Shown here: one piece after another, positions 6,605 to 31,184 of the stretch | Layout: each line of letters opens with the position of its first letter | How positions within the stretch are numbered: the stretch's first letter is position 1 | From: a virus | Length of the DNA: 32,708 bases | IMG/VR virus record: IMGVR_UViG_3300010885_027380 | Location: 1 to 32,708 of that record | Strand: one strand, 5' to 3' | The notes under the pieces: model-generated | Told to the model about the DNA's origin: nothing | The model's input: the letters and a program-made list of their open reading frames with translations, nothing else | Databases searched by the model: none | Program-made: the position numbers and the translations under genes

Positions 6605-9600
6605 ATGGCAGAATTTAAACTAGGTAGAATCAAATTTGTATGGAAAGGCCCATGGCAGGCCAGCACTCCTTACTACAAAGACGACGTTGTTTTAGTAGGT
6701 GGCGTCAGCTACATGTGTATTAACGCATACACATCTTCAGCAACTTTTTCAAGCGATACAGTTAACTGGCAACAAATGGCCGGTGGTACTAAGTTTGTTT
6801 CAGGCGGCTGGACAGCTAGCACAGCATTTAACTTTGGCGATTTAGTTACAGTTAACGGAAACGTTTACTATTGTAATACTGCCCACACAAGTGCAAGTAC
6901 TTGGTTAACAGATATTAGCAACTGGACATTATATGTACCAGGTGTAAAATTCCGTGGCGTATGGGCATCAGGAAATGTTCCTTACTTTGTTAACGACCTA
7001 GTTAAGTATGGTCCAGACATTTATATTTGTACAACTGCTAATTCAAATAGTACATTTACAGAAAGTAACTGGAGCATATTTGTACAAGGCTTAGAGTACA
7101 TGAACACATGGAGTTCAAGTACAACTTATGCAATTGGCGATGTTGTTACATACGGCGGCTATGTTTATAATTCAAAAGCAATTAACATTAATCAAGTTCC
7201 AAGCACAGCAACAGGATACTGGAGCGTAGTTACAACAGGCTACAATCAAAGCGGTAATTGGAGTTTATCATCAAGTTATAAAACAGGTGATGTAGTATTA
7301 TTTGGTGGATGGAGCTATGTTGCTCTAGCAGATAATGCTAACCAACAACCGTACATTGGTACAACTGGTATCAACACAGCTTACTGGTCTCTAGTGGTTA
7401 AAGGATTTAACCACAGAGGCGCATTTGCTAAAGCATTGACAGTTACTAATGCCAGCGGCAGCGGCTCAACTGTTACTTTAACATTTACTGCTCAATCTAG
7501 CACACCGTTTACTATTGGCACTAACATTATTGTTAACGGAGTATTACCAAGCGGATATAACGGAACTTATGTAGTAACAGGCGGAAGTACAACAACTGTA
7601 ACATTTGCCAGCACAACAACTGCAACATTCCAAGCAAGTACTGGTACAGTAGCAGGCATTTACTATCCAGGCGACGTTATTTTAAACACAAGTTCAACTT
7701 ATGTTGCTGTTGCAGTAACTAGTAATGTATTTCCTCCAAACGCAACTTACTGGCAAATTATTGGCCAAGGCGGCGTAGGTGCTAGTTTAACTGAAGTAGG
7801 TGACTTGGCGTATCGCTATAGCGATGGTACAGTTACTGGTTTGCATATGGCAACAGGAACTCAAGCCGGCGGCAACGTAATAGATGGTTATGTATTAAAA
7901 GCCAAAACACAAAGCGACACCACAATGCAACCGCGTTGGGGCGAGCTGGGCTATATCAATAATATTTGGTATGTGTCATCTAGTACAGGTACTGACGCTT
8001 CGGGATTTGGTCGTACACTAGACAAACCATTTGCATCAATTCGTTATGCTTGTTTGAATGTAACTGGACCAGCAACAATTTATGTCAAGACTGGTTCTTA
8101 CTATGAAACCTTACCAATCAGTGTGCCAGCAAACGTGAGTTTAGTGGGCGATGAATTGCGCACCACAATGGTTTATCCAGCTGCCGGCACAAGTGCAGAT
8201 GGTGTAACACCAAACAATCGTTCACGCATGTTTATGGTCAACAACGGTGTTGTAATTCGTAATATGACATTGGGCGGCTTAACCGGACAATTTACAGGTG
8301 CAACTTATATCACTGGTGATACAACAGATACAGATGGTATCTATCGTTTAACAGTTGGTACATGGCCAAGTCTAACAGCATCAGGTGCATACATTGCACT
8401 GGACCCAGCAGGTGCAATCACAACCAAATCACCATATATTCAAAATTGTTCAACATTTGGCGATCATGCAGTGGGAATGTATATCAACGGTGCTGACCAA
8501 GCCAGCGGCAACAAATCCATGGTGTCAAATGACTTTACACAAGTTATCGATGACGGCATTGGCGTATTTGCCTTGAATGGCGGCCGCGCTGAATTGGTTT
8601 CTGTTTTCACTTACTATGCATACATTGGCTATCTTTGCCAAACAGGTGGTGTGCTACGTGCCACTAACGGCAACAACTCATACGGACGCTTTGGTAATGT
8701 TGCAACAGATACAGATCCAACTGATACTGGATATAGTGGTACAGTAAACAATTTGGCAAATAGTGCCAAGATTGGTAATGTGCTAGTAGGTAACGGACAG
8801 ATCTTGGCAATCTTATGGGACTATTGCGGACAGAATTACACAAGCCCAACAATTGCATTAGACAATGCACCATTAAACGGTACAAATGCCAGTGTGTCGG
8901 GAGTTATTACCAATAACGCATTGAGCCACGTTAATGTTACCAACGCAGGATCAGGATATCAATATGTGGCTGGTACTGGACGTAATGGCGGTGTCAGCTC
9001 TAGCGGCACTTGGTTTGCTCTAGCGGCAACTGATAAAGCAACCGCCAACAATCAGTATCAAGGCATGCGTATTACCATTATCAATGGTTTAGGAGCAGGC
9101 CAAACTGGTGTTATTACCAACAGCTATTTGACTGACACACCTAGCGGAACTACCAAAGTGGTGTATGTTCAAACCACAGCTGGTGCAGACGGATGGGAAA
9201 CATTGGTAACTGGTGCAACGATTGTGACTACCTTAGATGCAAGTAGTCAATACACAATTCTTCCAGAAGTCAGAGTTATCGGCGGTGGTTATACTACCCA
9301 AGCAGTGGTAAGAGCCAATATTGATCCGGCTACATTTACATTTACCGGTGTTTATATCCTAAACGGAGGTGCAGGTTATACTGGCACTCCAACATACACG
9401 GTCACTGATCCACAAGGTGTTGGCGCCGCATTTACATCACAAATTTTGAGCGGAGCAATTTCCAGTGTAACTTATGCCAATCGCGGAGCAGGATATGTGG
9501 TAATTTATAACACAACTGCATCAATCACAGACTCAACAGGTTATGCAAATATTGCACAAACTGGTTTTGTAATAAATCTACAAGGATTGAATCAAGCACC

Positions 9601-10555
9601 GCGTGTTGGCAGTATTATTGTTATCCAAGGTCAGGCCAGTGCATTTTTAGTGGTGCAAACCAACAGCTATGCATCAAGTGGCGGAAAGGCCAACGTGACT
9701 ATTGGATCAGCAGTATCAACACTTACTCCTCTAACACAAGGCGCAACAGTCACAATTTATGCCAAGTTCAGTCAAGTGCGTTTAACTGGACATGACTATT
9801 TGGCCATTGGTACTGGCAATTTTGCAAGTACAGCATATCCAAATGTATTGCCAAACAGCTACAAAATCAATAACCAGCATGTAAGTCAGAACAATGGACG
9901 TATATTCTATACATCAACTGACCAAGACGGTAACTTCAGCGTGGGCGACTTGTTCAAGATTAACCAAGCAACTGGACAAGCCACATTGAATGTTAGTTCG
10001 TTCAACTTGGCTGGTTTGAATAGTTTGCAATTGGGCAATGCTGGAGCCATTATCAGTCAATTCTCCACAGACGGAACTTTGAGCGCCAACAGCGATTCAA
10101 TTGTGCCAACACAAAAAGCAGTTAGATCGTATATCAGTAGTCAGTTGGGTTCAGGCAGTAACAACTTGCAGGTCAACGTGTTGACAGCTGGTAAAGTTTA
10201 TATTCAAAACAACATTATCAGTAGCTCTCCAGGCACTGCTTCAGATATTGTGTTTGCTCCAGATGGTGCAGGTAAAGTTCAGTTTAACAGTTTGACAACC
10301 TACAGCTTCACAACAGCGCAAATTAACACACAATCTTATACTGCATTAGCTAACAAAGATTATGTAGATCAAGGTAACCGTGAAACAGTACACTCATTAA
10401 ATGTGGATTCAAATGGTAATTTGTTATGGACTAGCGATACTGGATCTTCGGGTGCATTGTTAGATGCATCATTATATCAAGACTATACTGTTTTAACTCG
10501 CGGTTCGGCCTTGCTAATAAATAACTCAACTGGTAATTTGCAAATTACATACTAA
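6605..10555 (+). CDS. Large tail protein: six carbohydrate-binding-like repeats plus beta-helix-like region, 1316 aa
   Basis: AAGGA precedes the start. Residues 7-265 contain five repeats of about 50 residues with the pattern W...[Y/F]..[GN]D.V...G..Y.[C/A]....W, the layout of CBM5/12-like chitin/cellulose-binding modules. A sixth (271-395) is split by a GYNG module (about 282-350). Residues about 452-695 begin WYVSSSTGTDASGFGRTLDKP and contain PATIYVKTGSYYE..PI..P..VS.VGDE, a beta-helix/pectate-lyase-like pattern found in tail proteins of T4-like marine phages. Residues about 775-980 carry GSGY/GGGY-type modules. The C-terminus has a fibre-type VPTQKAVRSYI motif (about 1165-1175). The likely role is a host-surface binding tail protein. 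Leucine codons shift from TTA to TTG between about 7900 and 10320. Confidence 0.82.
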   Translation: MAEFKLGRIKFVWKGPWQASTPYYKDDVVLVGGVSYMCINAYTSSATFSSDTVNWQQMAGGTKFVSGGWTASTAFNFGDLVTVNGNVYYCNTAHTSASTWLTDISNWTLYVPGVKFRGVWASGNVPYFVNDLVKYGPDIYICTTANSNSTFTESNWSIFVQGLEYMNTWSSSTTYAIGDVVTYGGYVYNSKAININQVPSTATGYWSVVTTGYNQSGNWSLSSSYKTGDVVLFGGWSYVALADNANQQPYIGTTGINTAYWSLVVKGFNHRGAFAKALTVTNASGSGSTVTLTFTAQSSTPFTIGTNIIVNGVLPSGYNGTYVVTGGSTTTVTFASTTTATFQASTGTVAGIYYPGDVILNTSSTYVAVAVTSNVFPPNATYWQIIGQGGVGASLTEVGDLAYRYSDGTVTGLHMATGTQAGGNVIDGYVLKAKTQSDTTMQPRWGELGYINNIWYVSSSTGTDASGFGRTLDKPFASIRYACLNVTGPATIYVKTGSYYETLPISVPANVSLVGDELRTTMVYPAAGTSADGVTPNNRSRMFMVNNGVVIRNMTLGGLTGQFTGATYITGDTTDTDGIYRLTVGTWPSLTASGAYIALDPAGAITTKSPYIQNCSTFGDHAVGMYINGADQASGNKSMVSNDFTQVIDDGIGVFALNGGRAELVSVFTYYAYIGYLCQTGGVLRATNGNNSYGRFGNVATDTDPTDTGYSGTVNNLANSAKIGNVLVGNGQILAILWDYCGQNYTSPTIALDNAPLNGTNASVSGVITNNALSHVNVTNAGSGYQYVAGTGRNGGVSSSGTWFALAATDKATANNQYQGMRITIINGLGAGQTGVITNSYLTDTPSGTTKVVYVQTTAGADGWETLVTGATIVTTLDASSQYTILPEVRVIGGGYTTQAVVRANIDPATFTFTGVYILNGGAGYTGTPTYTVTDPQGVGAAFTSQILSGAISSVTYANRGAGYVVIYNTTASITDSTGYANIAQTGFVINLQGLNQAPRVGSIIVIQGQASAFLVVQTNSYASSGGKANVTIGSAVSTLTPLTQGATVTIYAKFSQVRLTGHDYLAIGTGNFASTAYPNVLPNSYKINNQHVSQNNGRIFYTSTDQDGNFSVGDLFKINQATGQATLNVSSFNLAGLNSLQLGNAGAIISQFSTDGTLSANSDSIVPTQKAVRSYISSQLGSGSNNLQVNVLTAGKVYIQNNIISSSPGTASDIVFAPDGAGKVQFNSLTTYSFTTAQINTQSYTALANKDYVDQGNRETVHSLNVDSNGNLLWTSDTGSSGALLDASLYQDYTVLTRGSALLINNSTGNLQITY
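7448..7651 (+). repeat. GYNG module, copy 2, nested in a carbohydrate-binding-like repeat
   Basis: It encodes TNASGSGSTVTLTF...PFTIGTNIIVNG...GYNGTYVV...TTTVTFA. It sits between the first strand (GAFAKA) and the YPGDVI strand of the sixth carbohydrate-binding-like repeat, so it reads as an insertion into an existing repeat. Confidence 0.7.
9265..9520 (+). repeat. GSGY-type glycine module
   Basis: It encodes VRVIGGGY...., YILNGGAGYTGTPTYTVTDP and VTYANRGAGYVV in sequence. The same 'V..GG.GYT..P.V.V...G..A.A....G.V..V.V...G.GY' layout is found at 16981-17199 and 24610-24831 and, on the minus strand, at 26427-26633. Confidence 0.6.
10517..10523 (+). promoter_or_regulatory. T4-late-like motif ATAAATA inside gene end
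   Basis: It lies within the last codons of the 1316-residue gene, 45 bases upstream of the next start at 10569. That position would suit a late promoter for the first RCC1 protein. It also codes for part of that protein, so it may be coincidental. Confidence 0.3.
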
Positions 10556-10568
10556 TTAGGATAATAGA

Positions 10569-13500
10569 ATGGCACAAACTATAAATTTAGGAAAATTAAG
10601 ACTGGATTGGAGAGGAGATTACAATCCGTCAACAGCCTATGTTGCGAACGATATTGTCACTTATCGAAATCAACAATGGGTCTGTACACAGCCAACCCAG
10701 GCAGCTTCTTTTGTTGGAAGTCAAACTGGAACAACATTAACAGTTACCAGCGTTAATCCAATTACTCCAGAATCGGGTATTAATATTTTATCCACATCAG
10801 CAGGTACAACTGTTAATGTGGCAAGCACACTGGGATTACAAACTGGTAACAGATTTGTTGTTACCGGAAATGCAGGCGGCGGATTAACAGCAACAACTTA
10901 TTTTGTGGGCGCCGTAACATCAAATACCACACTGACATTGGCAACTACTTATGCTAACGCTATAGCTGGTACATACGTTACATTTACTGCATTCACATTT
11001 GGTTCAAGCAGTATAGGCAATCCTATAATGACTGGCACATTGTTTTCTGCATATGGCTCTTTAGCAGTTGGTCAGACAATTGCAGGTTCATCTAATCCAA
11101 TTAACGTTATCAATGCTACTGGAACTGGCTCTATCGCAACATTGACATTTGCAACACAGCCTACCAGCACACCATTTGCCAGCGGCAGTACTATTGTGGT
11201 GCAAGGTATTACCCCACTGGGATATAACGGATCATTTGTTGTTATATCCAGCACTGCAACCACAGTCACTTACGCTAATACTACAACTGCAACATTGCAA
11301 TCTGGAAGTTTAGGAACTATCAGCAGTATATCAACAGCCAACACCATAACAGCGGCGGCAGCGGGAAATGCTGTGGGCACCTACACCGTTAGCACATCGG
11401 TTGCTACTGCAACTGGTAGTATTAGTTGGACTTCAATATTTTCAACTTCGACTCCTGCTGTTAATAATAGCTATTGGTCTACATTCACACAAATGTTCAA
11501 CAATCAAGGAAACTGGGTCAATGGACAGACTTATGCTGTGGGCGACATTGTGTTGTATTCTACACCAGGTGCGTTACAAAATTTACCAACAACAGTTACT
11601 GCCAATTACTCACTAAATCGCAACGTTGTGCAAGCATACTATTGCATTTTAGCGCACACTGCCAGCAATACTGGAACAAACATCACACCAGCGGACCCAA
11701 CATATTGGACTCCTGTAAACCGCAAAGGCATTCTAGGAACACAAACGGCACCTAATTCATTGTTTGATTCCTATCAGTTGGGTGTGTATTCAAATCAAAA
11801 CTATTCTAATTTGGTATTCCCTAACAGAGGTATTGCATTTGACAACAGCCCCAACTACTATGGCGGCGCAACTAAAAATACCACAGACAGCCCAACATTT
11901 GGTTATGTTACAGCCAACGGTCAGGTCATGAACTGGGGCATGGACGTCAACGGATCAGTTGGAGTTCCAACTACTCATCAGGGCACAAGCAGTTACAACA
12001 ACTCAGCAAAAAATTCATTAACATTTCCGTTTTATGATTACTGGAGAAGTACCAGTGCCAACGGTAGTGGAGTACACTCTACACCAGACGGCGGTATCCC
12101 TCGCGTTATTCAGTGGGAAAAAGGTTATGACCGTAATTTAGTTCTAATGAACTCGGGAGAAGTATTTTCTTGGGGCATGGGAACAACTGGTGAAAACGGT
12201 GACGCTCAAAGCGCCGCCAACAGAGCGTATCCAGTACGTGTAGGTGGATCACTGGCGTCTGTATACAACAACGTGGCTCCAACAGGAACCACATTTGCCA
12301 ACGGCACACGTTTTACAGCAGGCCACAGTTGGTACAATGTGCGTATCAAACGTATCAGCATGAGCGGTGGATGCGGATCGCCTACCACTACTCATCATTG
12401 TTTGGCTCTAGACGAAAGCGGAAACTTATGGGTATGGGGCAACAACGCCAGCGGACAACTGGGTATGAACGCCATTGATCCAGGTGCTACTCAACAAGTT
12501 ACTGCCCAAACTCAACCTCAACAACTGCCTAGAAGCGCATTTACCACAGCGGCAAATCCGTCAGGACAAAGTGTTGTTGCAATTTGGGCCTGTGGAGTAG
12601 GACAATATGGATTTAGTTATGCAGTAACACAAGACGGAAACTTATGGGCTTGGGGATACAATGCTTCAGGACAATTGGGCACAGGTAACACAACCACTCA
12701 GTATGCACCAATCTTGATCAGTGCAGTAACAGGTACTGCTGGCACATATTTTGGTAGTGGTGCCATTGGATCCATTACAAAAATTCAAGTGTTGGACGAT
12801 AACGCAGGAACAACTTACGCATGTGCGGCAATTTTGACCAGCACTAATCAAATATATGTAACTGGCAACAATGCCAGTGGATGGGCAGGAATTGGTACAG
12901 CATCATTCAACTACTGGACCAACATTGCAGGCGGCCCAGGCACAGCAGGCAATAGTGCTGCCAGAGATTTCTGGTTGTACGGTACTGGTGGACGATATGC
13001 CAGTCTAATGCAACGTGATAAAAATACTGGCTTTTGCTGGACCGCAGGCTATAACGCATACGGGCAGTTGGGCTATAGCGGTACTAGTACAACATCAAGC
13101 TCAACATTCACAGTTAGTAAAATAAATGTGTCAGGAAGTTTGTACAATTTAACAAACGTCAAACAATTGGCATTTTCATCCAACGGAACATATTGCTCAG
13201 CTACCGTAGTACTAGATAACGGCATGGGATTCAGCATTGGCAACAACTATTTTGGCCAGACCAGTATTGGATATAGTAGCAACGCTGTACAATTAGGTAA
13301 CAACTACAGCGGCGGTCAAGGAACAGCCACAACAACACCAGCACTAGCTGGTGCATTTGCCAACGAACCAAACGGTATTGAACTAGTTTATTCTTTCGTA
13401 TGGCAACCTATGCGTACTCCTCCAGGCATGCAGGGCAACTTGGCAGATTGCATGGGTTACAATTATGATACCAGCAGTTTCTGGTTGATGTGGGTCAACA

Positions 13501-13646
13501 ATGACGGCAGGGTCATGCTGTCAGGATCATACGGCGTCAGCGGACAATATTTCAATCCGTGGGGGCAGATACACGTTGCAGGCGGAAACATCAACACCGG
13601 AACCGGTGTGAATACAGAAACAATGTCAATACCAATTACAGATTAA
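10569..13646 (+). CDS. RCC1-type beta-propeller tail protein, 1025 aa
   Basis: AGGA seven bases upstream sets the start. The N-terminus (NLGKLRLDWRGDYNPSTAYV) is the same module as in the three neighbouring large proteins. This first carbohydrate-binding-like repeat is interrupted by about 240 residues of small beta modules, including a GYNG module (about 182-251), before its terminal SYWSTF. A second repeat spans about 310-390. From about 440 to 1000 come RCC1-type blades: GQVMNWGMDVNGSVG, GEVFSWGMGTTGENG, GNLWVWGNNASGQLG, GNLWAWGYNASGQLGTGNTT, with later blades more degenerate. A TPDGG.PR.IQW motif near 500 is shared with the next two RCC1 proteins. A glycan- or protein-binding tail adhesin is likely; no enzyme motif is visible. 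Confidence 0.85.
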   Translation: MAQTINLGKLRLDWRGDYNPSTAYVANDIVTYRNQQWVCTQPTQAASFVGSQTGTTLTVTSVNPITPESGINILSTSAGTTVNVASTLGLQTGNRFVVTGNAGGGLTATTYFVGAVTSNTTLTLATTYANAIAGTYVTFTAFTFGSSSIGNPIMTGTLFSAYGSLAVGQTIAGSSNPINVINATGTGSIATLTFATQPTSTPFASGSTIVVQGITPLGYNGSFVVISSTATTVTYANTTTATLQSGSLGTISSISTANTITAAAAGNAVGTYTVSTSVATATGSISWTSIFSTSTPAVNNSYWSTFTQMFNNQGNWVNGQTYAVGDIVLYSTPGALQNLPTTVTANYSLNRNVVQAYYCILAHTASNTGTNITPADPTYWTPVNRKGILGTQTAPNSLFDSYQLGVYSNQNYSNLVFPNRGIAFDNSPNYYGGATKNTTDSPTFGYVTANGQVMNWGMDVNGSVGVPTTHQGTSSYNNSAKNSLTFPFYDYWRSTSANGSGVHSTPDGGIPRVIQWEKGYDRNLVLMNSGEVFSWGMGTTGENGDAQSAANRAYPVRVGGSLASVYNNVAPTGTTFANGTRFTAGHSWYNVRIKRISMSGGCGSPTTTHHCLALDESGNLWVWGNNASGQLGMNAIDPGATQQVTAQTQPQQLPRSAFTTAANPSGQSVVAIWACGVGQYGFSYAVTQDGNLWAWGYNASGQLGTGNTTTQYAPILISAVTGTAGTYFGSGAIGSITKIQVLDDNAGTTYACAAILTSTNQIYVTGNNASGWAGIGTASFNYWTNIAGGPGTAGNSAARDFWLYGTGGRYASLMQRDKNTGFCWTAGYNAYGQLGYSGTSTTSSSTFTVSKINVSGSLYNLTNVKQLAFSSNGTYCSATVVLDNGMGFSIGNNYFGQTSIGYSSNAVQLGNNYSGGQGTATTTPALAGAFANEPNGIELVYSFVWQPMRTPPGMQGNLADCMGYNYDTSSFWLMWVNNDGRVMLSGSYGVSGQYFNPWGQIHVAGGNINTGTGVNTETMSIPITD
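11112..11322 (+). repeat. GYNG module, copy 3
   Basis: It encodes NATGTGSIATLTF...PFASGSTIVVQG...GYNGSFVV...TTVTYA, closest to copies 1 and 2. It lies inside the first carbohydrate-binding-like repeat of the 1025-residue protein. Confidence 0.7.
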
Positions 13647-13655
13647 GGATAAAAC

Positions 13656-16178
13656 ATGTCAACATTAGATTTAGGTAAAATTAAACAACTTTGGAGAGGC
13701 ACCTGGACGACTGGTAATAGCTATTTGCCTAACGATCTTGTGGCTTACAACAGCGCCATTTGGATTTGTACACAAGGGCAGACAGCTGGTTCAAGCACAG
13801 AGTTTAGCCCAGGCAAACGAGACCGTGCAAATGCCTTGGTCAAAACTGTGGACACTTCGGAAATTATCACATTTGCTGTGACTGTACAAACAGTTAATAG
13901 TGTGAACTTTTTCTTTATAGATGGCCGCCAAGCACCAAGTTTAACTTTATATGCCAACGTGCATTATAGATTTTACCAAAAAGACCCAAGCAATCTGTTA
14001 CACAAATTTGCCCTGTCAACAACATCTGACGGTATTTTTGGAACAAACGGTGTTGAACTAAGCAGTGCAAGCACAGCATACACTTATCAATACAGTGGTA
14101 CTGCTGGAGTTGACGGCGTTCTTGATGTGGTATTGTCCAGTAACTTTGTGGGATCTTTGTATTTTTATTCGACTACAGATTCAGCATACGGCGGATCAGC
14201 CCTTACTCCACGATCAACTTTGACCATTGCCACAGCATGGAGAGGTTATCAATACTGGGATCAACTGACTTCTGGATTCAGCTTTACAGGAGCATGGAAT
14301 TCTGGAACACAATACTACTACAACAACATTGTAGAATATCAAGGCGCAACTTATCTAGCACTGGCAGATAACATTGGATCATTTCCAGCAGAACCAATCG
14401 GTCCTTTACAACTGGCTTCGTCTGATGTGAAAGCACCATACTTGGCTACTGGTACACAATATGCCACAGCCAACAGTGGAAACCACAACTGGATGCTGTT
14501 GGTCAATGGTGATCGCAGAACAGAACACAACAGCGTGGGTTGGTTCATGAACAAAGGCCCAATTGGTTGGCCTTATCCACATGGCAATCAAGGCAACGGC
14601 AATCACTATGCGGCATTGAAATGGATCACTCGCAGTGGCCGCGCTTACAATCACGGTTGCGGAGCTGGTTATAACAGCGGTGTTGATGCAAACAACTCAG
14701 TTGCATATATTTCGTACCCACAAGAAATTGTGTTTAACCATGCAGACTGGTGGATGAGTCGTGACAATGGTGGAACTGGTCGTTTGGTAACTCCAGACGG
14801 CATGCCACCACGTTGTATACAGATTGAAGCTGGATACCTATGGGCACACTACTTGTTCAACAACGGTGAAGTCTGGGGCAACGGCCAAGGCAATCAAGGA
14901 TACCTAGGCACTGGCGTGACAGCAAACAACGCAGGAGTTCCTCTACGTGTGGAAGGACTTAATGACGTTAAAATTATCAAAATTTCAGCTCCTTATGGTC
15001 CGTTGATTGACGAGCATCATGTGATGGCACTGGATGATCAGGGGTTTGTATGGACCTGGGGTGCAAACAACTCTGGCCAATTGGGCCTCGGTCACACCAC
15101 AGACATGTACACCGCTCAACGTTTACCAAGAAGTTATTTCAACAACGAGCGTGTTATTGATATTCTAGCAATGGGTGCTGCCAGTACTGGCCTTTGCTAT
15201 GCAAGAACAGCACAAAACAACATTTACGCTTGGGGCTACAACGGAGCCAGCCAACTGGGTGTAGGCGACACCACCGTACGTTATCGTCCAGTACAAATGA
15301 GCAGTTCATCATGGGCTCCAGCAACAAACTCTGGCATAGTCAAATGGCAGGCCGCACAATGCGGTACCAACGGCATGTTCATGCTGTTGGATGGTGCTGG
15401 TTATTTGTGGCATACCGGAGCAGATCCATACGGTGCCGCTGGCAACTCAGTAGTGGCCTCGACACGTACCACACTGACCAAATCCACAGCAGGGCCTGCT
15501 GGAACACTGGTCAACTTCTGGACCATATGGAGCGGTGATAACTCAACATTTGTACAGACTTTTGCTAGAAACGTCAGCGGCGCAACTTATAGTTGTGGCA
15601 TTGGAACAACTGGTGGTAGTGGTAATAACACCACTGGCACCAATAGTGCAACAGCACCAGCAACTGCGGCAAACATCATAACTGCAAACACCAATCCGTT
15701 GTCGACCACATTGCCAACTGGTTTGGGACAAGGCCTTGTCAACTTGAAAGATGTGTATGTGCATGTGTCGCAATCAAACACAAACAAAGTGATCACATGG
15801 TTGACCGATTCAGGCCACATGTTCAGCCAAGGATACAGCAACTTTGGCGAAACTGGAAATCCAGCGGTTCCAGCAGGATCCAGCAATCAACTTGACGAAG
15901 GTGGAGTCAACTATAATCCAGTTCAAGTGTATGCCACACCAGGCACACGCCCAACACAATTGATGCCAAGCGGCATGGCTACTAGCGATACTGGTACTAC
16001 TGTCAACGTGCAACACGGCATGTTTGCACTTACTGATATTGGACAAGTGTTTGCATGGGGCATGACTCGAAGCAACGCCATCCAAGTAAACTATGAAGGA
16101 CAATTCATCGGGTACAACTGGCGTGCTCCTAGAAACTCATATAGTTCACAACCAGTATGTATTCAGTGGGCACGTTAA
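13656..16178 (+). CDS. RCC1-type beta-propeller tail protein with cupredoxin-like insert, 840 aa
   Basis: AAGGA overlapping the previous stop gives the start. Residues 4-47 are the shared N-terminal module (DLGKIKQLWRGTWTTGNSYL). Residues about 63-187 resemble the cupredoxin-like domain of marine phage tail proteins (FFIDGRQAPSLTLY, then YRFYQKDPSNLLHKFALSTT, SDG, LYFYSTTDSAYGG). The Cys, His and Met ligands expected near its end are replaced by Ser, Asp and Tyr. A second carbohydrate-binding-like repeat covers about 205-285. RCC1-type blades follow to the end: GEVWGNGQGNQGYLGTG, GFVWTWGANNSGQLGLGHTT, NNIYAWGYNGASQLGVGDTT, GHMFSQGYSNFGETG, GQVFAWGM. The TPDGMPPRCIQ motif near 382-392 matches its two paralogues. 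Confidence 0.85.
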   Translation: MSTLDLGKIKQLWRGTWTTGNSYLPNDLVAYNSAIWICTQGQTAGSSTEFSPGKRDRANALVKTVDTSEIITFAVTVQTVNSVNFFFIDGRQAPSLTLYANVHYRFYQKDPSNLLHKFALSTTSDGIFGTNGVELSSASTAYTYQYSGTAGVDGVLDVVLSSNFVGSLYFYSTTDSAYGGSALTPRSTLTIATAWRGYQYWDQLTSGFSFTGAWNSGTQYYYNNIVEYQGATYLALADNIGSFPAEPIGPLQLASSDVKAPYLATGTQYATANSGNHNWMLLVNGDRRTEHNSVGWFMNKGPIGWPYPHGNQGNGNHYAALKWITRSGRAYNHGCGAGYNSGVDANNSVAYISYPQEIVFNHADWWMSRDNGGTGRLVTPDGMPPRCIQIEAGYLWAHYLFNNGEVWGNGQGNQGYLGTGVTANNAGVPLRVEGLNDVKIIKISAPYGPLIDEHHVMALDDQGFVWTWGANNSGQLGLGHTTDMYTAQRLPRSYFNNERVIDILAMGAASTGLCYARTAQNNIYAWGYNGASQLGVGDTTVRYRPVQMSSSSWAPATNSGIVKWQAAQCGTNGMFMLLDGAGYLWHTGADPYGAAGNSVVASTRTTLTKSTAGPAGTLVNFWTIWSGDNSTFVQTFARNVSGATYSCGIGTTGGSGNNTTGTNSATAPATAANIITANTNPLSTTLPTGLGQGLVNLKDVYVHVSQSNTNKVITWLTDSGHMFSQGYSNFGETGNPAVPAGSSNQLDEGGVNYNPVQVYATPGTRPTQLMPSGMATSDTGTTVNVQHGMFALTDIGQVFAWGMTRSNAIQVNYEGQFIGYNWRAPRNSYSSQPVCIQWAR

Positions 16179-16179
16179 T

Positions 16180-16578
16180 ATGAAGATCATGAGTCGTACA
16201 CAAGAACAACTGGAAGGTTATAACGAACCTGAATTTTTGGAATCTTATGATGCCAAGACCAGTTATAAATTGTTAGGCAATGCTGATGGTAAGGAGTTTT
16301 ATAGCTTTGACCCGTCAGCAGTTGAATTGGCCACCAATGATGAGCGATTTCAAGTAAAAATATACGACACAACCAATGCACAAGATGCTGAATATTTGTC
16401 AAAGATAAAAAATCAGCTATGGGTTGTACAGCAGGAAACACAAGATATCAAGAGCAAGTTGGACATGGACATTTTTACCGTACTGACTAACTTGGCAGTT
16501 GGCGATAAATACACTATCGATACACTAACAGCTCTTAAAAAAGAACACGATGATTACTTGAGTAATCTGGGATTTTAA
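16180..16578 (+). CDS. Small protein between RCC1 genes, 132 aa, possible accessory or chaperone
   Basis: The frame is open from 16093, but I place the start at 16180, one base after the preceding stop; an ATG at 16189 (MSRTQEQ) is an alternative with a short GAAG site. In contrast to its neighbours the chain is charged and looks alpha-rich, especially from about residue 70 to the end (YLSKIKNQLWVVQQETQDIK, then ALKKEHDDYL). It has no Cys and no membrane segment. Small helical genes directly after phage adhesin genes are often dedicated chaperones or adaptors, but nothing here proves that. I do not recognise the family. Confidence 0.7.
   Translation: MKIMSRTQEQLEGYNEPEFLESYDAKTSYKLLGNADGKEFYSFDPSAVELATNDERFQVKIYDTTNAQDAEYLSKIKNQLWVVQQETQDIKSKLDMDIFTVLTNLAVGDKYTIDTLTALKKEHDDYLSNLGF
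16505..16511 (+). promoter_or_regulatory. T4-late-like motif ATAAATA inside gene
   Basis: It lies within the 132-residue gene, 79 bases upstream of the third RCC1 gene. It could drive that gene separately. It is a coding match as well, so support is weak. Confidence 0.3.
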
Positions 16579-16590
16579 TAGGAAAGAATC

Positions 16591-19032
16591 ATGGGACTAA
16601 CAGTTTCGCAATTTAAATTTAATTACAGAGGCCAATGGCAATCTGCTACACTATACAAGAAAAATGACATAGTGCAGTACAACAATGCCGCTTATGTTTG
16701 TCTACAAGATGTTAGCGACGAGTGGAAAGTGGCCATGGATCACCAAGTGGTTCAAAACAATAGTGCAACTGCCAGCCCGTTCTATGTTTCCAGTCCAGAA
16801 ATTTATTTCGTAGATAAACGTCCAGATTTAGAAACTCAGTATTTTCGATTGATTGCTCGTGGTAACACATTCAAACGCGGTTGGGCTCCACATCGTGTGT
16901 ACACATACGGTGATGTGGTGCGTTACGGCGGTGACTTGTTCATGTATACAGGTATGCCAGGACAAAATGCAACAGCAACAGCCGCCATCAATGGCCAAGG
17001 TAGCATTGTTGGCGTTACCATCACCAACGGCGGCACGGGCTATAGTCAGGCACCTTTGGTAACATTTGGATTTGATAGCTTGCGTGGTTCAGCAGGTGCG
17101 CAAGGTTATGCAACGGTATCCAACGGCGTGGTCACCGGCGTGGTGATTACCCATCCAGGATTGAACTATCAAACAGCACCCACGGTTAATTTGAACTTTG
17201 CACCAGTACGTAATACACATCCAGAAGATCCAACATATTGGACTCGTGTGTTTACTAACCCCAATAGAGATACACGTCGTTTATATGCAGTAGCAACACC
17301 AAACATGCAACCACTGGGATGGACTCGCAACAACGGCGACTATCCTAATACCGTGGTAAGTGACGGCACCATGATAGGATTTATTGGTGCTGACGGCGTT
17401 CCTTACAGCAATGGTTGGAACACCGGTACATACAACACAGGCGGCCGCGGCATTAGAGATTGGTTAAACAGCTGGCAACCTAGTAGTTTTACATTTACCG
17501 ATTGGATGCGTAGCACTGACAATCAGGCAAGTTTGTCATTGGGCGTATTATCCAGCGGTTGGTTACCAACACCGGACGGATTGCCTCCGCGCTGTATCCA
17601 ATGGATCAAAGTGTGGCAAGCCAGTTGCTGGTTATTCAACAACGGTGAAGTATACTATTCAGGTATCAACGATTCTACTGGGCAGGCTGGTATGACCAGT
17701 GCTACTCAATATTCAGTCACAACCAGAGTGACCAATTTGTCCACATCAGGTTGGTTGGGTGAAACTTTACAAAGAAGTTTCAATCAAACCAAAATTATCA
17801 AGATAGACACCACAACAGTGGGTGTTAACACTCAGATCTCTGGAACATGGTTTGCATTGGGCAATGATGGCAGCATGTGGGGATGGGGACGTAACGATGT
17901 GGGACAGATAGGCTTGGGCAATAGTGCAACCAGTACCAGCTTGTCATTGGCCAATCAATTGAGTCCAATCCGTATTCCAGCAGTGTTCTTTGACAACAAG
18001 AAGATTGTTGATTTTATCTGCTTTGGACACGACTATGGCACATGTATTGCTCTAGACGAAGATGGAGATTTGTGGGGTTGGGGATCAGATTGGTCAGGCG
18101 AGTTGGGCATGGGCGGACGACCAGCTGCCAACAATACTCGCGTTATTCCAACACGTATTCCGTTTGACTTCAAGAAATTTGGCGGTGTTAAAAAAATGTC
18201 ATATGCACACACTGGATCTAATAGTGTTCGCTATGTGATAATTTTGACCAACGACGGTAGTTTGTTTGGTGCTGGGCAATTCCCATCCGCAATGGCTCCT
18301 AATAGTCCATTCTATGGTGTGGCAAGCAGTACAACCAATTCCACAGGACGTCAAGTTAATAGATTTACCAAGTACATGACCACTAACTACAACATCAAAC
18401 AAGTTGAGAATTTTTGGATCTTGGGAGATGCTATTTCTTGCAATGTGTTTATCCGTGAAAAAGACACTGGATTGACTTATGGCATGGGCGACAACACACA
18501 AAACACCGTTACTAGTGCTACACAAGCATATGGCACAGGCGCTGGTACCCAAGGGCCTTGGAGTTTGATTCGTGGTCCACGCAACGTTGTTCACATGACC
18601 AACACTGAAAGCGGTAACGGCCAGAACGGCAGTTTGACCATCATGATGTTGGACGAAAATGGCCGCGTTTGGGGACAAGGATTAAACACAAGAGGAAGTT
18701 TGAGTCTGGGTTATAACGGCAAATCGTTTGACCAAACAGTAGATCCAGCGCAAAATCCAGAAGCAGGCGGTATGTATCATTACTGGCCAGCACGTATGCC
18801 TAGCAACACTCGCATTACAACCTTAATGGGGCAGGGTCGACCTACTTATGATTTGTCATCTTTTATAACAGACGACGGCCAGTGTTTGTATTGCGGTAGC
18901 GATAGTGCTAACGATACTATCAGTGCAGGATTGGTTCAAGGACAAGTGGTGTATGCATTTAGACACTATTTTGTTTCAACCAGCGACGGTAACAGCGTTA
19001 GATACACAATGCACAGCTTGGTAGGTGATTAA
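16591..19032 (+). CDS. RCC1-type beta-propeller tail protein, 813 aa
   Basis: AGGAAA upstream sets the start. The N-terminal module (SQFKFNYRGQWQSATLYKKN, then DIVQYNNAAYVCL) corresponds to that of the three preceding large proteins. A second carbohydrate-binding-like repeat starts near residue 92 (RGWAPHRVYTYGDVVRYGGD) and is interrupted by a GSGY module (about 131-203) before its terminal DPTYWTRV. From about 260 onward are RCC1-type blades: GSMWGWGRNDVGQIGLGNS, GDLWGWGSDWSGELGMGG, GSLFGAGQ, GLTYGMGD, GRVWGQGLNTRGSLSLG, GQCLYCGSDS. The TPDGLPPRCIQW motif near 327-338 aligns with its two paralogues. A tail adhesin role is inferred from domain type and context. Confidence 0.85.
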   Translation: MGLTVSQFKFNYRGQWQSATLYKKNDIVQYNNAAYVCLQDVSDEWKVAMDHQVVQNNSATASPFYVSSPEIYFVDKRPDLETQYFRLIARGNTFKRGWAPHRVYTYGDVVRYGGDLFMYTGMPGQNATATAAINGQGSIVGVTITNGGTGYSQAPLVTFGFDSLRGSAGAQGYATVSNGVVTGVVITHPGLNYQTAPTVNLNFAPVRNTHPEDPTYWTRVFTNPNRDTRRLYAVATPNMQPLGWTRNNGDYPNTVVSDGTMIGFIGADGVPYSNGWNTGTYNTGGRGIRDWLNSWQPSSFTFTDWMRSTDNQASLSLGVLSSGWLPTPDGLPPRCIQWIKVWQASCWLFNNGEVYYSGINDSTGQAGMTSATQYSVTTRVTNLSTSGWLGETLQRSFNQTKIIKIDTTTVGVNTQISGTWFALGNDGSMWGWGRNDVGQIGLGNSATSTSLSLANQLSPIRIPAVFFDNKKIVDFICFGHDYGTCIALDEDGDLWGWGSDWSGELGMGGRPAANNTRVIPTRIPFDFKKFGGVKKMSYAHTGSNSVRYVIILTNDGSLFGAGQFPSAMAPNSPFYGVASSTTNSTGRQVNRFTKYMTTNYNIKQVENFWILGDAISCNVFIREKDTGLTYGMGDNTQNTVTSATQAYGTGAGTQGPWSLIRGPRNVVHMTNTESGNGQNGSLTIMMLDENGRVWGQGLNTRGSLSLGYNGKSFDQTVDPAQNPEAGGMYHYWPARMPSNTRITTLMGQGRPTYDLSSFITDDGQCLYCGSDSANDTISAGLVQGQVVYAFRHYFVSTSDGNSVRYTMHSLVGD
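16981..17199 (+). repeat. GSGY-type glycine module nested in a carbohydrate-binding-like repeat
   Basis: It encodes VGVTITNGGTGYSQAPLVTF, then A.GYATVSNGVVTGVVITHPGL and NYQTAPTVNLNF. It separates the GDVVRYGGDLFMYTG strand from the terminal YWTRV strand of the host repeat. Confidence 0.65.
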
Positions 19033-19051
19033 GAATTAACAGGAAAATATA

Positions 19052-20764
19052 ATGTCAAAAACCACACTTCAATTACGTAGAGGTAGTTCCGCAGATAATG
19101 CAACCTTCACTGGCGCAGTCGGTGAAGTTATCGTCAACACGACCACAAATTCGCTGGTTGTGCATGACGGCACAACAGTAGGTGGTTTTGGCCAAGCTCC
19201 TTTAGCCAGTCCAGCACTTACTGGCATTCCCACTGCGCCCACAGCAGTTGCCAATACAAACACCACACAAATTGCTACCACAGCATTCGTTGCAACAGCA
19301 GTGGCAAACGCTTCACCTACACTGACTACAACAGCAGTCACTGAAGGTACAAATTTATACTTTACCAATGCTCGTGCAAGATCAGCTGTTAGTGCTACTG
19401 GCAGCATTGCTTACAACAGCAGTACTGGTGTATTCAGTTATAGTGCTCCAACGGTTCTTAGTGCATTCACTAACGACGTGGGATTCTTGACCAGTGCTAC
19501 AATTCTTAATGCATTGAGTGTTACCTCAACACCAAGCGGAGCATTGACTTATAATTCAGCAAATGGTGTATTTACATTTACACAAGCAGTCAACAGTGTA
19601 AACGGAAGAACTGGCGATATTGTACTTACTACAACTAACATTGCTGAAGGTACAAACAAATATGCTACCACAGCTAACGTACAAACAGCATTGGCCGCCG
19701 GCGGTGTTTCTAACTCAATGTTGGCTAACAGTACAATTACTGTTAACGGATCAACATTAACACTAGGCGGCTCAAGCACAATAACAGCGGCAGCTGGTAC
19801 GCTAACTGGATCAACATTAAATTCTTCAGTTACTGGATCAAGTTTGACCAGCGTAGGCACACTAACCAGTTTGGCAGTTGCCGTTAACGCAGGAACTAGT
19901 GCAAACATTGGTGCAATTTCAGTTGGAACAAACGGATTCTTAGACACTGGCGTGTTGGCTAACTTTGTATCTAGTACTAACAGCTACAATCAAGTTACTG
20001 TACAAAACACCAATGCAGGTAGTTCAGCTAGTTCAGAGTTCATTGCTTATAATAATCAAGGTACAGCAAGTACCAACTTTGCAACAGTTGGTATCAATTC
20101 AAGTGGTTATTCGGGAGTTGGTTCTATCAATGCCGCTGGATATAGTTATTTCTTAAGTGGTAGTACTGACCTAGTAGTTGGTACAATTGGCAACAACGCC
20201 ATCCACTTTGCAGTCAACAGCGGTGCAACAGACGCTATGACTATCAGCACAGCTTCTAACGTGGGTGTTGGTGTAAATCCAGCATACAAACTAGACGTTG
20301 CAGGCGACATTAATTTTACTGGGGCTCTACGCACAAGTGGAACTCCAGGAACTTCAGGATACGTATTACTAAGCAAAGGTGCTGGACAGAACCCACAATG
20401 GTCCAACATTAGAGATAGTTTACCAAATATCACACAGTTAGACAGTTGGAGTGCTACTATTAACGGTGGAACCACCGTGTTTAGCCCTACAAACAACGGA
20501 TCTGCGGTGAGTATTTCTTACCCAATCCAAGTTTTGATGTTTAAAAATGGCGTATATCAACAGCCATGGCTAAATAATAGTAGACCAGTGTGGAACACAT
20601 TCACCAAGTACGGCGATTACACAGTAACCGCTGGACAAGTTGTTTTTACTAGTCCACCGCAGTACGGAGATTTTATATCGGCAACGGTAATGGTAGGAAA
20701 CGTAAGCAATCCAGTTTACGGATCGTATCCTTTCAGCGCATTTGATATAGCAACAGGAACCTAA
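19052..20764 (+). CDS. Tail fibre with phage-fibre repeats, 570 aa
   Basis: AGGAAA precedes the start. The N-terminus TLQLRRGSSADNATFTGAVG followed by EVIVN...LVVHDGTT is the short 'RRGT...GE....lkvGDG' module common at the start of phage receptor-binding proteins. Residues about 50-85 hold the classic tail-fibre repeat PALTGIPTAPTAVANTNTTQ followed by IATTAFV. Next come EGTNLYFTNARARSAV and related repeats, then a Ser/Thr/Gly-rich shaft. YKLDVAGDINFTG (near 411-423) leads to a distinct C-terminal domain with aromatic residues (MFKNGVYQQPWLNNSRPVWN, then YGDYTVTAGQVVF), possibly the distal tip. A long or side tail-fibre subunit is likely. No chaperone gene follows it. Confidence 0.82.
   Translation: MSKTTLQLRRGSSADNATFTGAVGEVIVNTTTNSLVVHDGTTVGGFGQAPLASPALTGIPTAPTAVANTNTTQIATTAFVATAVANASPTLTTTAVTEGTNLYFTNARARSAVSATGSIAYNSSTGVFSYSAPTVLSAFTNDVGFLTSATILNALSVTSTPSGALTYNSANGVFTFTQAVNSVNGRTGDIVLTTTNIAEGTNKYATTANVQTALAAGGVSNSMLANSTITVNGSTLTLGGSSTITAAAGTLTGSTLNSSVTGSSLTSVGTLTSLAVAVNAGTSANIGAISVGTNGFLDTGVLANFVSSTNSYNQVTVQNTNAGSSASSEFIAYNNQGTASTNFATVGINSSGYSGVGSINAAGYSYFLSGSTDLVVGTIGNNAIHFAVNSGATDAMTISTASNVGVGVNPAYKLDVAGDINFTGALRTSGTPGTSGYVLLSKGAGQNPQWSNIRDSLPNITQLDSWSATINGGTTVFSPTNNGSAVSISYPIQVLMFKNGVYQQPWLNNSRPVWNTFTKYGDYTVTAGQVVFTSPPQYGDFISATVMVGNVSNPVYGSYPFSAFDIATGT
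20570..20576 (+). promoter_or_regulatory. T4-late-like motif CTAAATA inside gene
   Basis: It lies inside the 570-residue fibre gene (coding WLNN), 214 bases upstream of 20791. The flanking string ggctaaataatag is identical to that at the minus-strand site 28431-28437. It may be chance. Confidence 0.2.
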
Positions 20765-20790
20765 GACCAAAATATTGGAGAAATAATAAA

Positions 20791-23700
20791 ATGGCAAGAA
20801 AAATTTTACTCGACACAGCATACACATTCACTCCTTCTTCAGCCACTATCGTAATTCCACGATACATACCAAGAGAAAGATTGATTCTGATCACTGATGT
20901 CACAAACAACACAGTCCTATATAACTTTTCAGATCCAACTCTGAAAGCTAGTAGCTACACAGCCGTAGCAGGACAAACTACTTGGGGCGGACAGGCAGGA
21001 ACAACTACAATCGTTCTTTCTTATAACACCAATACTTCGTCTTTCAACGCTCTTGACAAGCTACAAGTCATGATTGATGAATACGATGAGCGTTTTACTC
21101 CATCTGAAACTCAACTAGATCCAACAAACAAACTACGTGTTTCAATGCCACAGTCATTGATTGACACTGACTTTGAATATTCATTCCAACCTACTAAGTG
21201 GGAATTTTTCCAGTCACAAAACTGGAACGCTTCAGTTTACACAAGTACTAGCAACTCAGTACTAGCATCAACATACGGTGGCGCAGGTTTCAGCTTGATC
21301 CTACCAAGCGTTACTGTTTCAAGCAACGTAGGTACAATTTCTAGCTTGAACTTGCCAATCGCACCGTATGTTGGTTCATACATTTACATCATTGAACCTG
21401 CTGCCAACACAACATTGACATTTGGTAACTTCCGTTACACAGTGTCTACAGGAAGTACAACACAAATTACATTCGCAATCCAAGCAACCAACGGTACATA
21501 CAATCCACAATTGGTTGTAATTGCTTCAGTTCCAGGTACTGTGACAAACCCAAGCTATGCGGCATTCCAAGTTTCAAACAACTTGACAGCAGCCGGTGTT
21601 AACTTGGTAGCTGGTCAACCAGTATTGGCTCAAGATACACAAAACGAACCATACTGTGACGGTACATTCGTTGTGGCATATATTAACCAGACACAAGCGG
21701 CTTTCGCTTATTTCCCTAAAGTTAACCAACAGTTTAACCAAAACCAACTACAAAAAGCACAAACCAGTTTGTTCGTAGGTGGATACTATGCCGCAGGTTA
21801 CGGTATTGGTTCAATCATTCCAGTAGGTTCAATGGCTACAGGAAGTGACGGCCGTACAGTTACAGTTACTTGCTACAGTAATCACAACTTGGTACCAGGT
21901 GCTCCTGTATATGTTGGTAATGCTGTATTAACAGCGGCCAACGGTCCATGGTATGTTCAGTCAACACCAAACCCGTACAGCTTCACATACAACGTGTACG
22001 GCGGTATTACAGCTAGCCAAAGTGGTTCATCAGTATTACAAAACACCACAGTAGTTTACGCTCGTCCAGAAGGTTATCAAATTCAACGTTCAAGTGACGG
22101 CGGTATTGGTATTTTTGGTGGTAACGCAGTGGCAGGTGCTCAAGCATTACGTCAAACACGTCGTTATTTCCGTTACCAAGCTGGTAAAGGTATTCAGTAC
22201 TCAACAAGTGCTACATTCAAGCCAAACCAAGATATTGTTAAAATCACAGTAGTAGGTAACTTGGCCACTGTAACATGTGATCAAGATCACGGTTTACAAT
22301 ACGGAGCTGTTGTTAACTTGCGTAATATCGCTACCACTACTGGTACAGACTTGCCAATTTACAACTGCACAGGTTCAGTTGATCCACGTGTTACATTAAC
22401 ACCACGCTCATTTGGTATCCAGTTAGCTGGCACACCAACAGATACTAACCCAGGTTGCGGTATTGCCACAGTAGAAGTGGGATATGCAACAGGTGCATGT
22501 ATTCGTTGCGGATTGTTTGATGATCAAAACGGTTTCTTCTTTGAATATGATGGTACATTCTTGAATGCAGTTCGTCGTAACGGTACTACAATTTTACGTG
22601 GTACAACTAACGTATGTACAGGTTCAACAATTGTTATTGGTACTGATTCACAGTATACACGTCAAGTTCAAGCAGGTGACAAGATTATTATTCGTGGTTC
22701 AGTTTACGAAGTTTCACAAGTTGTTAACGACAGCGTTATTCACATTGCTCCAGCATATCGTCCAGCAAGTCCAGCATTGGCTTCAGGTACAGCAGGTTTA
22801 CCATTTGCGTTTATTACTGGCGGTAACGGTACAACACAAACTGTAACAACATCAGCAAGTGCTAACACAAGTCGTGTGACATTTACAGCAGTAGCTGGTA
22901 CTGGTACAGCAGGTGTAGGTGGTATTGGTGTAACTGGTGCTTATCAAGTAACTGGTACTATTCCACGTACAGTTAGTACAACATTAAGTGCTATTGCATT
23001 GTTAAATGCTACAGCAATTACAGTTACTAGTGCAACCAGCATTGTTCCAGGACAATTGGTTGTTATCAGTGGCGCAGGTAACTTGCCAGCTAACACATAC
23101 GTAGCATCTACATACGTAGCTGGTTCAACTACAGTTCCATTGACACAGGGTGTTACAACTCAAACTGCGGCAACTACCACAGTTGATTTCTACAACAGCC
23201 CAGCATCAGGTATGAACGTAATTGCTGGTTCAATGGCACAAGGTATTATTGCTAACGGTACACAAGTTTCAGCCTTTACCAACACAGCAGGTACAGCAGG
23301 TGCAACTATTACTATTCAGTTGTATCTAAACCAAGCGGTTGTAGGTACTACAACAGCGGCAACATTGTATATTGGTTCAGTTCCAGGTTATACGGCAGCT
23401 AGCTTGTACACAACTTCAACACAAGTTGTTGCATTGACAACCACATACGGTATTAGCCCAGGTATGACAATCTCAGGTACTGGTATTCCAGGTAACTGTA
23501 TTGTAGCTGGTCTAGCTGTAGCAGGTGTTGGTGTTATTTTAAACACACCAATTACCAACGCAGTGGCTGACGCAACTACATTGACATTTGCTCCAAACAC
23601 AACATTGTATGCGATTACAGTGCAAACATCGGCAGCAAGTGCGGCAACATCAACTACATTAACATTGAGCAACATCAGTGGTGTGCAAGTTGGTAGTTTC

Positions 23701-29721: not shown

Positions 29722-31184
29722 TGATCTGCCGTATATTCACCTTCGTAGCTCTTGACCCAGGAAACTCCGTTCCATAAGTATTGAACTCCAGTGTATATAT
29801 TCGTTTGCCAGACCATGGTCTCGGTAAAGTGACTGTGCGAAAACACCACACGCCACGCAGAGCCAGTCCACTCTATGATATCGTTAGCATAGGCCACTAG
29901 TGTGCCCCATTCTGTTGCAGGATGAGTGTTGTTAATATTGCCTATATCATCTACTAACAAGTAACGTGTTCCTGCACTAACCTCACCTGGATTATAGGTT
30001 AACGGATTAATAATAGCATCAAATGTTCCTGTACTATTAGGTCTGTAACTACCAGCGGCATCGTATCCAACAGCAGTATCAATTTTACCAGTGCTGTCAA
30101 TACCGGTATTGCTAGACAATGAATCTGGGTTCCAATTAACACTTAGTTTAGTTTCATCTAGTGGATTAATTGCAAATGTACCTACTACATAACTGCCATT
30201 CGGCTGTTCTAAATATATCATACTGCTACCAGCAACATAAGTACCACCGCTATTAATTAAAAATTCTTGCCAGCTTAGTGGAACTCCTTGGCGAACTGGA
30301 GCAGGATCTGGAGTTGGTTCGTTTGGATAAACGCTTTCATGTGGATTCAGCAATAATACACTAGATCCCATAACTTCAATATTATTATTCCCAGCAACCG
30401 TAACAATTTTTTCTAGCATCGTGCTGAGAGTGGTAGTAGGAGGAGTAGGATCGCTACCCAATCCGTCAATATAAGTTCCGCTAGTAGTAGATCCTTGTTG
30501 AATACTTGTAATAATTTTTGTAATAACACCAAGATGTTTTACTTTTGCAGGCGGGCTAATCCATACAGGACTATCTACAGTAATTGTAGCAACGCTAATT
30601 GGAGTGTCGTTGCCTACCGGAACTGTACGACTATCCCAAGCAATATCATTCAAATTTAATACACTTAAACTGGTCCAATCAATATAGTTGTCAGTAGTTT
30701 GTAGTTCTAAACTAGGATTAAACAAGACTAATATTTGTTCTAATAATTGCAATTTTTGTTCAGTGCTAGCAGTCCAAATGTCTACTTTCATAGTAAGTTT
30801 GAACGGAGTTGGCATTAATCGCTCAACGGTATAGTTTCTACCGTTATCTTGATTGTAAATTATTTCACCGTATGTTGGGCTACCTGGTACGCTATCTACT
30901 TGTGTTCCACGTTCTCTAACATGAATTTTACCTACATAACTAGAATCAGACAATCTTTCACGGTCCAATGCAAATGAGCTAACATACACACTAATACGCG
31001 GTATGCTGTTAACTTTGTTTTCGCTGTTTTGTCTAATAATGCTGGCCACTTGACGATCGGCATCGCCGTACATGACTGGAACACGCACTAATGTACCGTC
31101 GCCGTACTTGACTACAAAATTACTAAACACACGAATAGTTTGTGTGATGTAACGTCTTACTTGCCCGTCATAAAAAAATTCCAT
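29703..31184 (-). CDS. 15: Tail sheath stabiliser and completion protein, gp15-like, 493 aa
   Basis: The start overlaps the gp14 stop (TAATG). The N-terminus EFFYDGQVRRYITQTIRVFS, the segment LVRVPVMYGDADR, and the region MPTPFKLTMKVDIWTASTEQ followed by KLQLLEQILVLFNP match the layout of T4 gp15 (YFYN...RRY, IRVPI.YA, P.PIKM.YELSIFTRYEDDM, QIVEQILPYFQP). PVWISPPAKVK near 208-218 corresponds to the T4 'W.YPP' strand. gp15 forms a ring at the top of the tail that caps the sheath and tube and joins the neck. At 493 residues it is far longer than T4 gp15 (272); the extra C-terminal part ends with WTGSAWRVVFSHSHF and a Trp-rich YLWNGVSWVKSYEGEY. Confidence 0.88.
   Translation of the reverse strand: MEFFYDGQVRRYITQTIRVFSNFVVKYGDGTLVRVPVMYGDADRQVASIIRQNSENKVNSIPRISVYVSSFALDRERLSDSSYVGKIHVRERGTQVDSVPGSPTYGEIIYNQDNGRNYTVERLMPTPFKLTMKVDIWTASTEQKLQLLEQILVLFNPSLELQTTDNYIDWTSLSVLNLNDIAWDSRTVPVGNDTPISVATITVDSPVWISPPAKVKHLGVITKIITSIQQGSTTSGTYIDGLGSDPTPPTTTLSTMLEKIVTVAGNNNIEVMGSSVLLLNPHESVYPNEPTPDPAPVRQGVPLSWQEFLINSGGTYVAGSSMIYLEQPNGSYVVGTFAINPLDETKLSVNWNPDSLSSNTGIDSTGKIDTAVGYDAAGSYRPNSTGTFDAIINPLTYNPGEVSAGTRYLLVDDIGNINNTHPATEWGTLVAYANDIIEWTGSAWRVVFSHSHFTETMVWQTNIYTGVQYLWNGVSWVKSYEGEYTADQWKLVL

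Follow-up and report, generated by a model that had tools for sequence, protein, structure and literature searches.

Three neighbouring genes for RCC1-type propeller proteins form an ordered set that recurs in dozens of uncultured phages with two kinds of major capsid protein, and are not, as the original prediction had it, a feature of one phage. The set was analysed in the window, the whole stretch of 32,708 nucleotides, where the three genes (here P1, P2 and P3) follow a fibre gene on the same strand. We infer that P1-P3 are probably three non-interchangeable tail adhesins whose propeller heads contact the host and would bind a receptor there. The features on which the argument rests are these:

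6605-10555, + strand: fibre gene of 1316 aa upstream of P1 (phrog_9851 tail fiber, PHROG E 1e-154; Pfam CBM_5_12 E 7e-18)
10569-13646, + strand: P1, RCC1-type tail protein of 1025 aa (ORF, Pfam, PDB sequence search)
10569-10703, + strand: putative N-terminal anchor module of P1, CBM5/12-like, residues 1-45 (Pfam E 3e-6)
11721-13643, + strand: propeller region of P1, residues 385-1025, eight predicted four-stranded units (AlphaFold2, Foldseek)
12081-12113, + strand: P1 motif TPDGGIPRVIQ, between blade 1 and blade 2 (alignment, AlphaFold2 model)
13656-16178, + strand: P2, RCC1-type tail protein of 840 aa (ORF, Pfam, PDB sequence search)
14508-16175, + strand: propeller region of P2, residues 285-840, aligning with P1 across all eight units
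14790-14822, + strand: P2 motif TPDGMPPRCIQ (alignment)
16180-16578, + strand: small gene of about 132 aa in the P2-P3 gap (homologues by sequence, similar-size ORFs, alignment)
16591-19032, + strand: P3, RCC1-type tail protein of 813 aa with a CBM5/12-like N-terminus (ORF, Pfam, PDB sequence search)
17272-19029, + strand: propeller region of P3, residues 228-813, aligning with P1 across all eight units
17569-17601, + strand: P3 motif TPDGLPPRCIQ (alignment)

The lengths originally given for the three reading frames hold at these positions, and the claim that all three proteins end in RCC1-type blades is borne out by Pfam, where profile searches place the segments of P1, P2 and P3 in the RCC1 families PF00415 and PF25390, and by sequence matches in the PDB. 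The RCC1 profile PF00415 is matched with E-values of 3e-14, 2e-17 and 1e-12 for P1, P2 and P3 (53.6, 63.8 and 48.6 bits, all above the curated cut-off of 21.7). For the RCC1-like domain PF25390 the E-values are 6e-50, 4e-32 and 1e-22; here P1 passes the curated cut-off of 150 bits with 171, and P2 (112) and P3 (81) fall below it. PDB searches with the three sequences return strong matches, far beyond chance, to UVR8, HERC1/2, RCC1 and RPGR. In an alignment of 18 propellers (the three paralogues from each of six phages), P1-P3 share one linear order of eight WG-type hairpin units, with the canonical pattern WGxNxxGQLGxG found mainly in units 3 and 4 and the other blades degenerate yet alignable in all three paralogues. 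The motif TPDG..PR.IQ, which had been described as shared by the three proteins ahead of the blades, does occupy the same alignment position in all three, but it lies within the propeller, where according to the alignment and the P1 model it follows the first WG-type hairpin and leads into the innermost strand of blade 2.

An AlphaFold2 model of the P1 propeller, built with 35 homologues and covering P1 only, is confident from about residue 415 (pLDDT 79.5, pTM 0.85), and its strands group into eight four-stranded units. The alignment and the model thus both give eight units rather than the seven blades of the canonical RCC1-like domain, and the P1 propeller is probably eight-bladed. The leading Foldseek matches of the model in the PDB all belong to the RCC1 family, the best being UVR8 (4dnu; E 2.6e-23, TM 0.72 by target and 0.45 by query, rmsd 5.5), and the high rmsd is what would be expected when an eight-unit ring is laid over a seven-blade template. 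Structure prediction therefore yields an RCC1-type propeller fold for P1, to which P2 and P3 are tied by alignment; a full-length P3 model made with five sequences was poor (pLDDT 35.5) and was left out of the conclusions. Matches in a viral structure library include annotated tail fibres of the Pseudomonas phages Littlefix and PollyC, which have a predicted propeller like that of P1 but, unlike the cassette described here, are single proteins from unrelated short-genome phages.

Searching with the 18-propeller alignment produced 127 matching stretches, of which the best 80 were kept; they represent 70 viral loci. As these loci were chosen by propeller similarity and include near-duplicates (34 distinct P1 remain after de-duplication), the frequencies apply to this group and not to RCC1-bearing phages generally. 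The check for the same triplet in related phage genomes, suggested at the outset, was positive: exactly three RCC1 genes are present in 57 of the 70 loci, on one strand, with short spacing between P1 and P2 and a gap of 350-800 bp between P2 and P3. Eight of these 57 reach the edge of their contig. By best-scoring profile, the genes run P1, P2, P3 in 56 of them; in the exception, L152, the middle gene is assigned to P3 by a narrow margin (110 versus 98 bits). Of the remaining 13 loci, 12 run off the contig end and one, L118, has a split P3 (14598-16765, in two reading frames, through a sequencing error or because the gene is broken). No further RCC1 genes beyond the three ORFs were found in 11 contigs of 59-151 kb. 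The gene order is P1, P2, small gene, P3, behind a homologous fibre gene wherever the sequence extends that far; a homologue of the fibre gene was detected in 55 of the 70 loci, and also in cyanophages and in Mosig. Close relatives carry one-to-one orthologues of P1-P3 at 60-84% identity in unchanged order, and even in the distant contig L091 all three are present at about 34-35% identity with a small gene between P2 and P3.

The small gene can be read from 16093 as 161 aa overlapping P2, and its homologues, which begin at the internal ATG at 16180, suggest that the latter is the true start. Its position is conserved and its sequence weakly so: a sequence homologue occurs in 30 of the 70 loci, and an ORF of similar size fills the P2-P3 gap in every divergent locus inspected. 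Family searches returned no consistent match for it, and a role as assembly factor or linker would be a guess.

In a tree of 96 propellers, P1, P2 and P3 each form essentially their own clade: the labels, including the outgroup, require four changes, against a minimum of three and a mean of 49 after shuffling, and the one extra change is due to the marginal middle gene. Since each paralogue has its own clade, the triplication appears to be ancient, and a single such event is the simplest reading of these sequences. The idea that the genes multiplied by duplication is thereby supported, though not as a recent multiplication, since the split into three separately conserved subfamilies is old. 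Likewise, the strong divergence between the blades of the copies reflects this old subfamily split, with orthologues under purifying selection, and not a recent amplification.

The Gp23 capsid proteins encoded on triplet contigs fall into two kinds, one 67-69% identical to those of the jumbo phages Phosso, PA5oct/MIJ3 and Vibrio 2.275.O, the other 79% identical to that of Pelagibacter phage Mosig and 75% to that of Methylophilales phage Melnitz. Judged by these proteins, the carriers comprise two T4-superfamily lineages, a PA5oct/Phosso-like jumbo lineage and one like the Pelagibacter phage Mosig. The 32.7-kb window lacks a Gp23-type capsid gene, which is present in its close relative G002 and in many triplet contigs; matches to the gene at 31184-32668 in Atu_ph07, Phosso, PA5oct and RaK2 place the window's phage on the jumbo side. 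The label "T4-like" is hence apt at the level of the superfamily but not more narrowly, as the Gp23-type capsid proteins of the relatives are nearest those of the jumbo phages Phosso and PA5oct. We also considered transfer of the cassette between the capsid lineages. P1-P3 are about as similar between lineages as within them, which is no more than a hint of such transfer; the small trees, when unrooted, can be reconciled with a split into jumbo and marine phages and do not show incongruence. No clue to the host came from searching bacterial genomes with the P1 profile: the matches were all general RCC1 proteins, 23-34% identical and spread over many phyla.

Among jumbo-type contigs whose capsid proteins are 70-88% identical, P1-P3 share 25-44% identity in most pairs; between the two lineages the values are 22-39% for P1-P3 and 33-37% for the capsid protein. 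P1-P3 therefore diverge fast relative to the capsid protein, as host-contact proteins do, and this underlies our reading of host contact. At short range, comparing P1-P3 of the window with their L012 counterparts gives a dN/dS of 0.05-0.12 (dS is saturated) and no sign of positive selection, which counts against an adhesin function. Fast divergence among distant phages combined with purifying selection at short range nevertheless fits host-contact proteins. In the same comparison, synonymous divergence exceeds 1 in the block from the fibre gene to P3 and is 0.4-0.5 in the two downstream genes (19052-25806), so that a recombination boundary near 19040 is possible, with the same saturation of dS.

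P1-P3 lie in a tail-fibre cluster and begin with a tail-type module, the surroundings of adhesins. This CBM5/12-like N-terminal module is common to P1, P2 (residues 16-53, plus a second match), P3 and the fibre protein, in which Pfam finds it in three stretches, and its 45-aa start is recognisable across loci. Of 46 contigs found with this anchor, six have an RCC1 match and about 40-41 have none, indicating that the anchor is not propeller-specific but a generic tail anchor that carries the propeller as its head. While the tail location of P1-P3 can be inferred firmly, receptor contact, argued from context, anchor domain and divergence rate, is the weaker claim. We envisage that the short anchor would attach P1-P3, like the neighbouring fibre, to the tail or a fibre hub, that the variable middle would act as a stalk, and that the large, probably eight-bladed propeller would be the distal head touching the host surface. 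The proteins would then be present in the virion with the anchor at one end and the head at the other, would contact the host, and would act jointly as three parts. One ancient triplication may have been followed by retention of the set as fibre, P1, P2, small gene and P3. It is possible that the shared N-terminal module is a common stalk element instead of an anchor.

The surrounding genes have features of their own. The gene at 19052-20764 (570 aa) starts with an Mtd_N domain, the N-terminal domain of major tropism determinants (E 2e-12), and the C-terminal part of its product varies among close relatives, the L010 and L011 versions being longer and matching in the first part only; it is a further host-range candidate. 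Short modules, 40-60% identical over 50-85 aa, are common to P1 residues 175-245 and the genes at 1501-2520 and 6605-10555, and to P3 residues 118-200 and the gene at 20791-25806, suggesting shuffling within the tail cluster.

With the RCC1/BLIP-II superfamily (UVR8, the HERC RLDs and RCC1) P1-P3 share the repeat profile, the blade motif and, for P1, the fold, but they differ in having eight predicted units instead of the seven in solved structures, long inserts and fused phage tail modules; identity to UVR8 is about 17%. Multiple RCC1-type proteins are likewise found in Vequintavirinae and RaK2-like jumbo phages (W70, GAP32, 121Q, phAPEC6, EJP2), where in contrast to P1-P3 they are stand-alone proteins of about 370-400 aa in 3-13 copies with no shared tail anchor reported. 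The products of three consecutive RCC1 genes of W70 (W70_237-239) were detected in the virion by mass spectrometry (PMC11370258), as was GAP32_001, an RCC1 protein present in multiple copies in 121Q and PBECO4 (PMC5259590), and the phAPEC6 genome encodes eleven (PMC7247149); the proteins of W70, GAP32 and phAPEC6 were ascribed to DNA condensation or encapsidation (PMC11370258, PMC5259590, PMC7247149). In Escherichia phage EJP2 (L168 28572-40001), genes for proteins of about 370-460 aa form a long tandem run, and several of them bear the annotation GTPase regulator (RPGR-like, RCC1-type). The cyanophages S-SRM01 (three genes) and BUCT-ZZ01 (one) and the single-cell contig AG-345-E08 (three) also have RCC1 genes beside baseplate or fibre genes, but these are dispersed, their products are shorter or built otherwise, lack the P1-P3 N-terminus and fall outside the P1, P2 and P3 groups in the tree. 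The BUCT-ZZ01 protein (L096 11826-13928; 700 aa, annotated "BNR repeat") consists of about a dozen near-identical RCC1 repeats and looks recently amplified. A tblastn search with P3 found no match among cultured phages, and in the open-licence literature we found no paper that describes a fixed tail set of three RCC1 propellers. Multi-copy RCC1 virion proteins being known, the new findings that carry most weight are an ordered triplet that is fixed over two lineages and the prediction of eight units.

The cassette has a parallel in four cyanophages, S-CAM1, S-CAM3, S-SSM7 and Sf-FS3. Behind their homologous fibre gene comes a tandem array of exactly three Gly/Cys-rich paralogues, which match P1-P3 in slot and number but are unrelated to them in sequence type:

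L171 15958-18776; L271 10272-13072; L272 10270-12663; L273 6561-8974: Gly/Cys-rich triplets of the four cyanophages

In this small, hand-picked sample, P-SSM2 has two paralogues in the slot and AG-345-P14 at most one candidate, and the paralogues of S-SSM7/Sf-FS3 resemble one another (53-60%) more than they do those of the S-CAM phages, pointing to either independent triplication events or gene conversion. From the cyanophage triplets it could be argued that tail tips need exactly three paralogous heads of any fold, RCC1 propellers or Gly/Cys-rich, that form a hetero-trimeric (1:1:1) tip on a trimeric fibre and are not separate adhesins, an idea that we regard as doubtful. As an alternative to the adhesin reading, P1-P3 may be structural parts of the tail or baseplate (spacers, hubs or whiskers) with no part in receptor binding, and host recognition would fall to the fibre, to the Mtd_N-type protein encoded at 19052 or to a 1671-aa protein. 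Strict copy number and order would suit such parts, as would purifying selection and the Mtd_N neighbour, whose class includes known tropism determinants. However, among related phages P1-P3 have diverged far more rapidly than the capsid protein, and they have large C-terminal heads with long variable loops, and a purely structural role appears rather improbable to us.

Depolymerases are often encoded in phage adhesin clusters, and the propellers could on that ground be catalytic; yet all close structural matches are RCC1-family binding scaffolds and Pfam matched no enzyme family, and we see next to no prospect of an enzymatic function. Binding or condensation of phage DNA by P1-P3 would agree with the PHROG category labels and with what has been proposed for phAPEC6 (PMC7247149) and W70 (PMC11370258). 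Against it stand the position in a tail-fibre cluster, the tail-type N-terminal module in common with the fibre and the fact that no DNA-binding feature was noted, the label being inherited from eukaryotic RCC1. The similarity to RCC1 as Ran exchange factor and chromatin binder is at the level of the fold only, and no phage counterpart of Ran is known. DNA condensation by P1-P3 is thus unlikely, and we give it very little weight beside a function as tail adhesins.

With P1-P3 read as tail adhesins, the database label "regulator of chromosome condensation" becomes a testable tail-adhesin hypothesis. An eight-unit RCC1-type propeller would extend this architecture beyond the solved RCC1 structures, and the three-gene signature defined here serves to find a widespread group of uncultured aquatic phages, raising the question of why exactly three heads have been kept.
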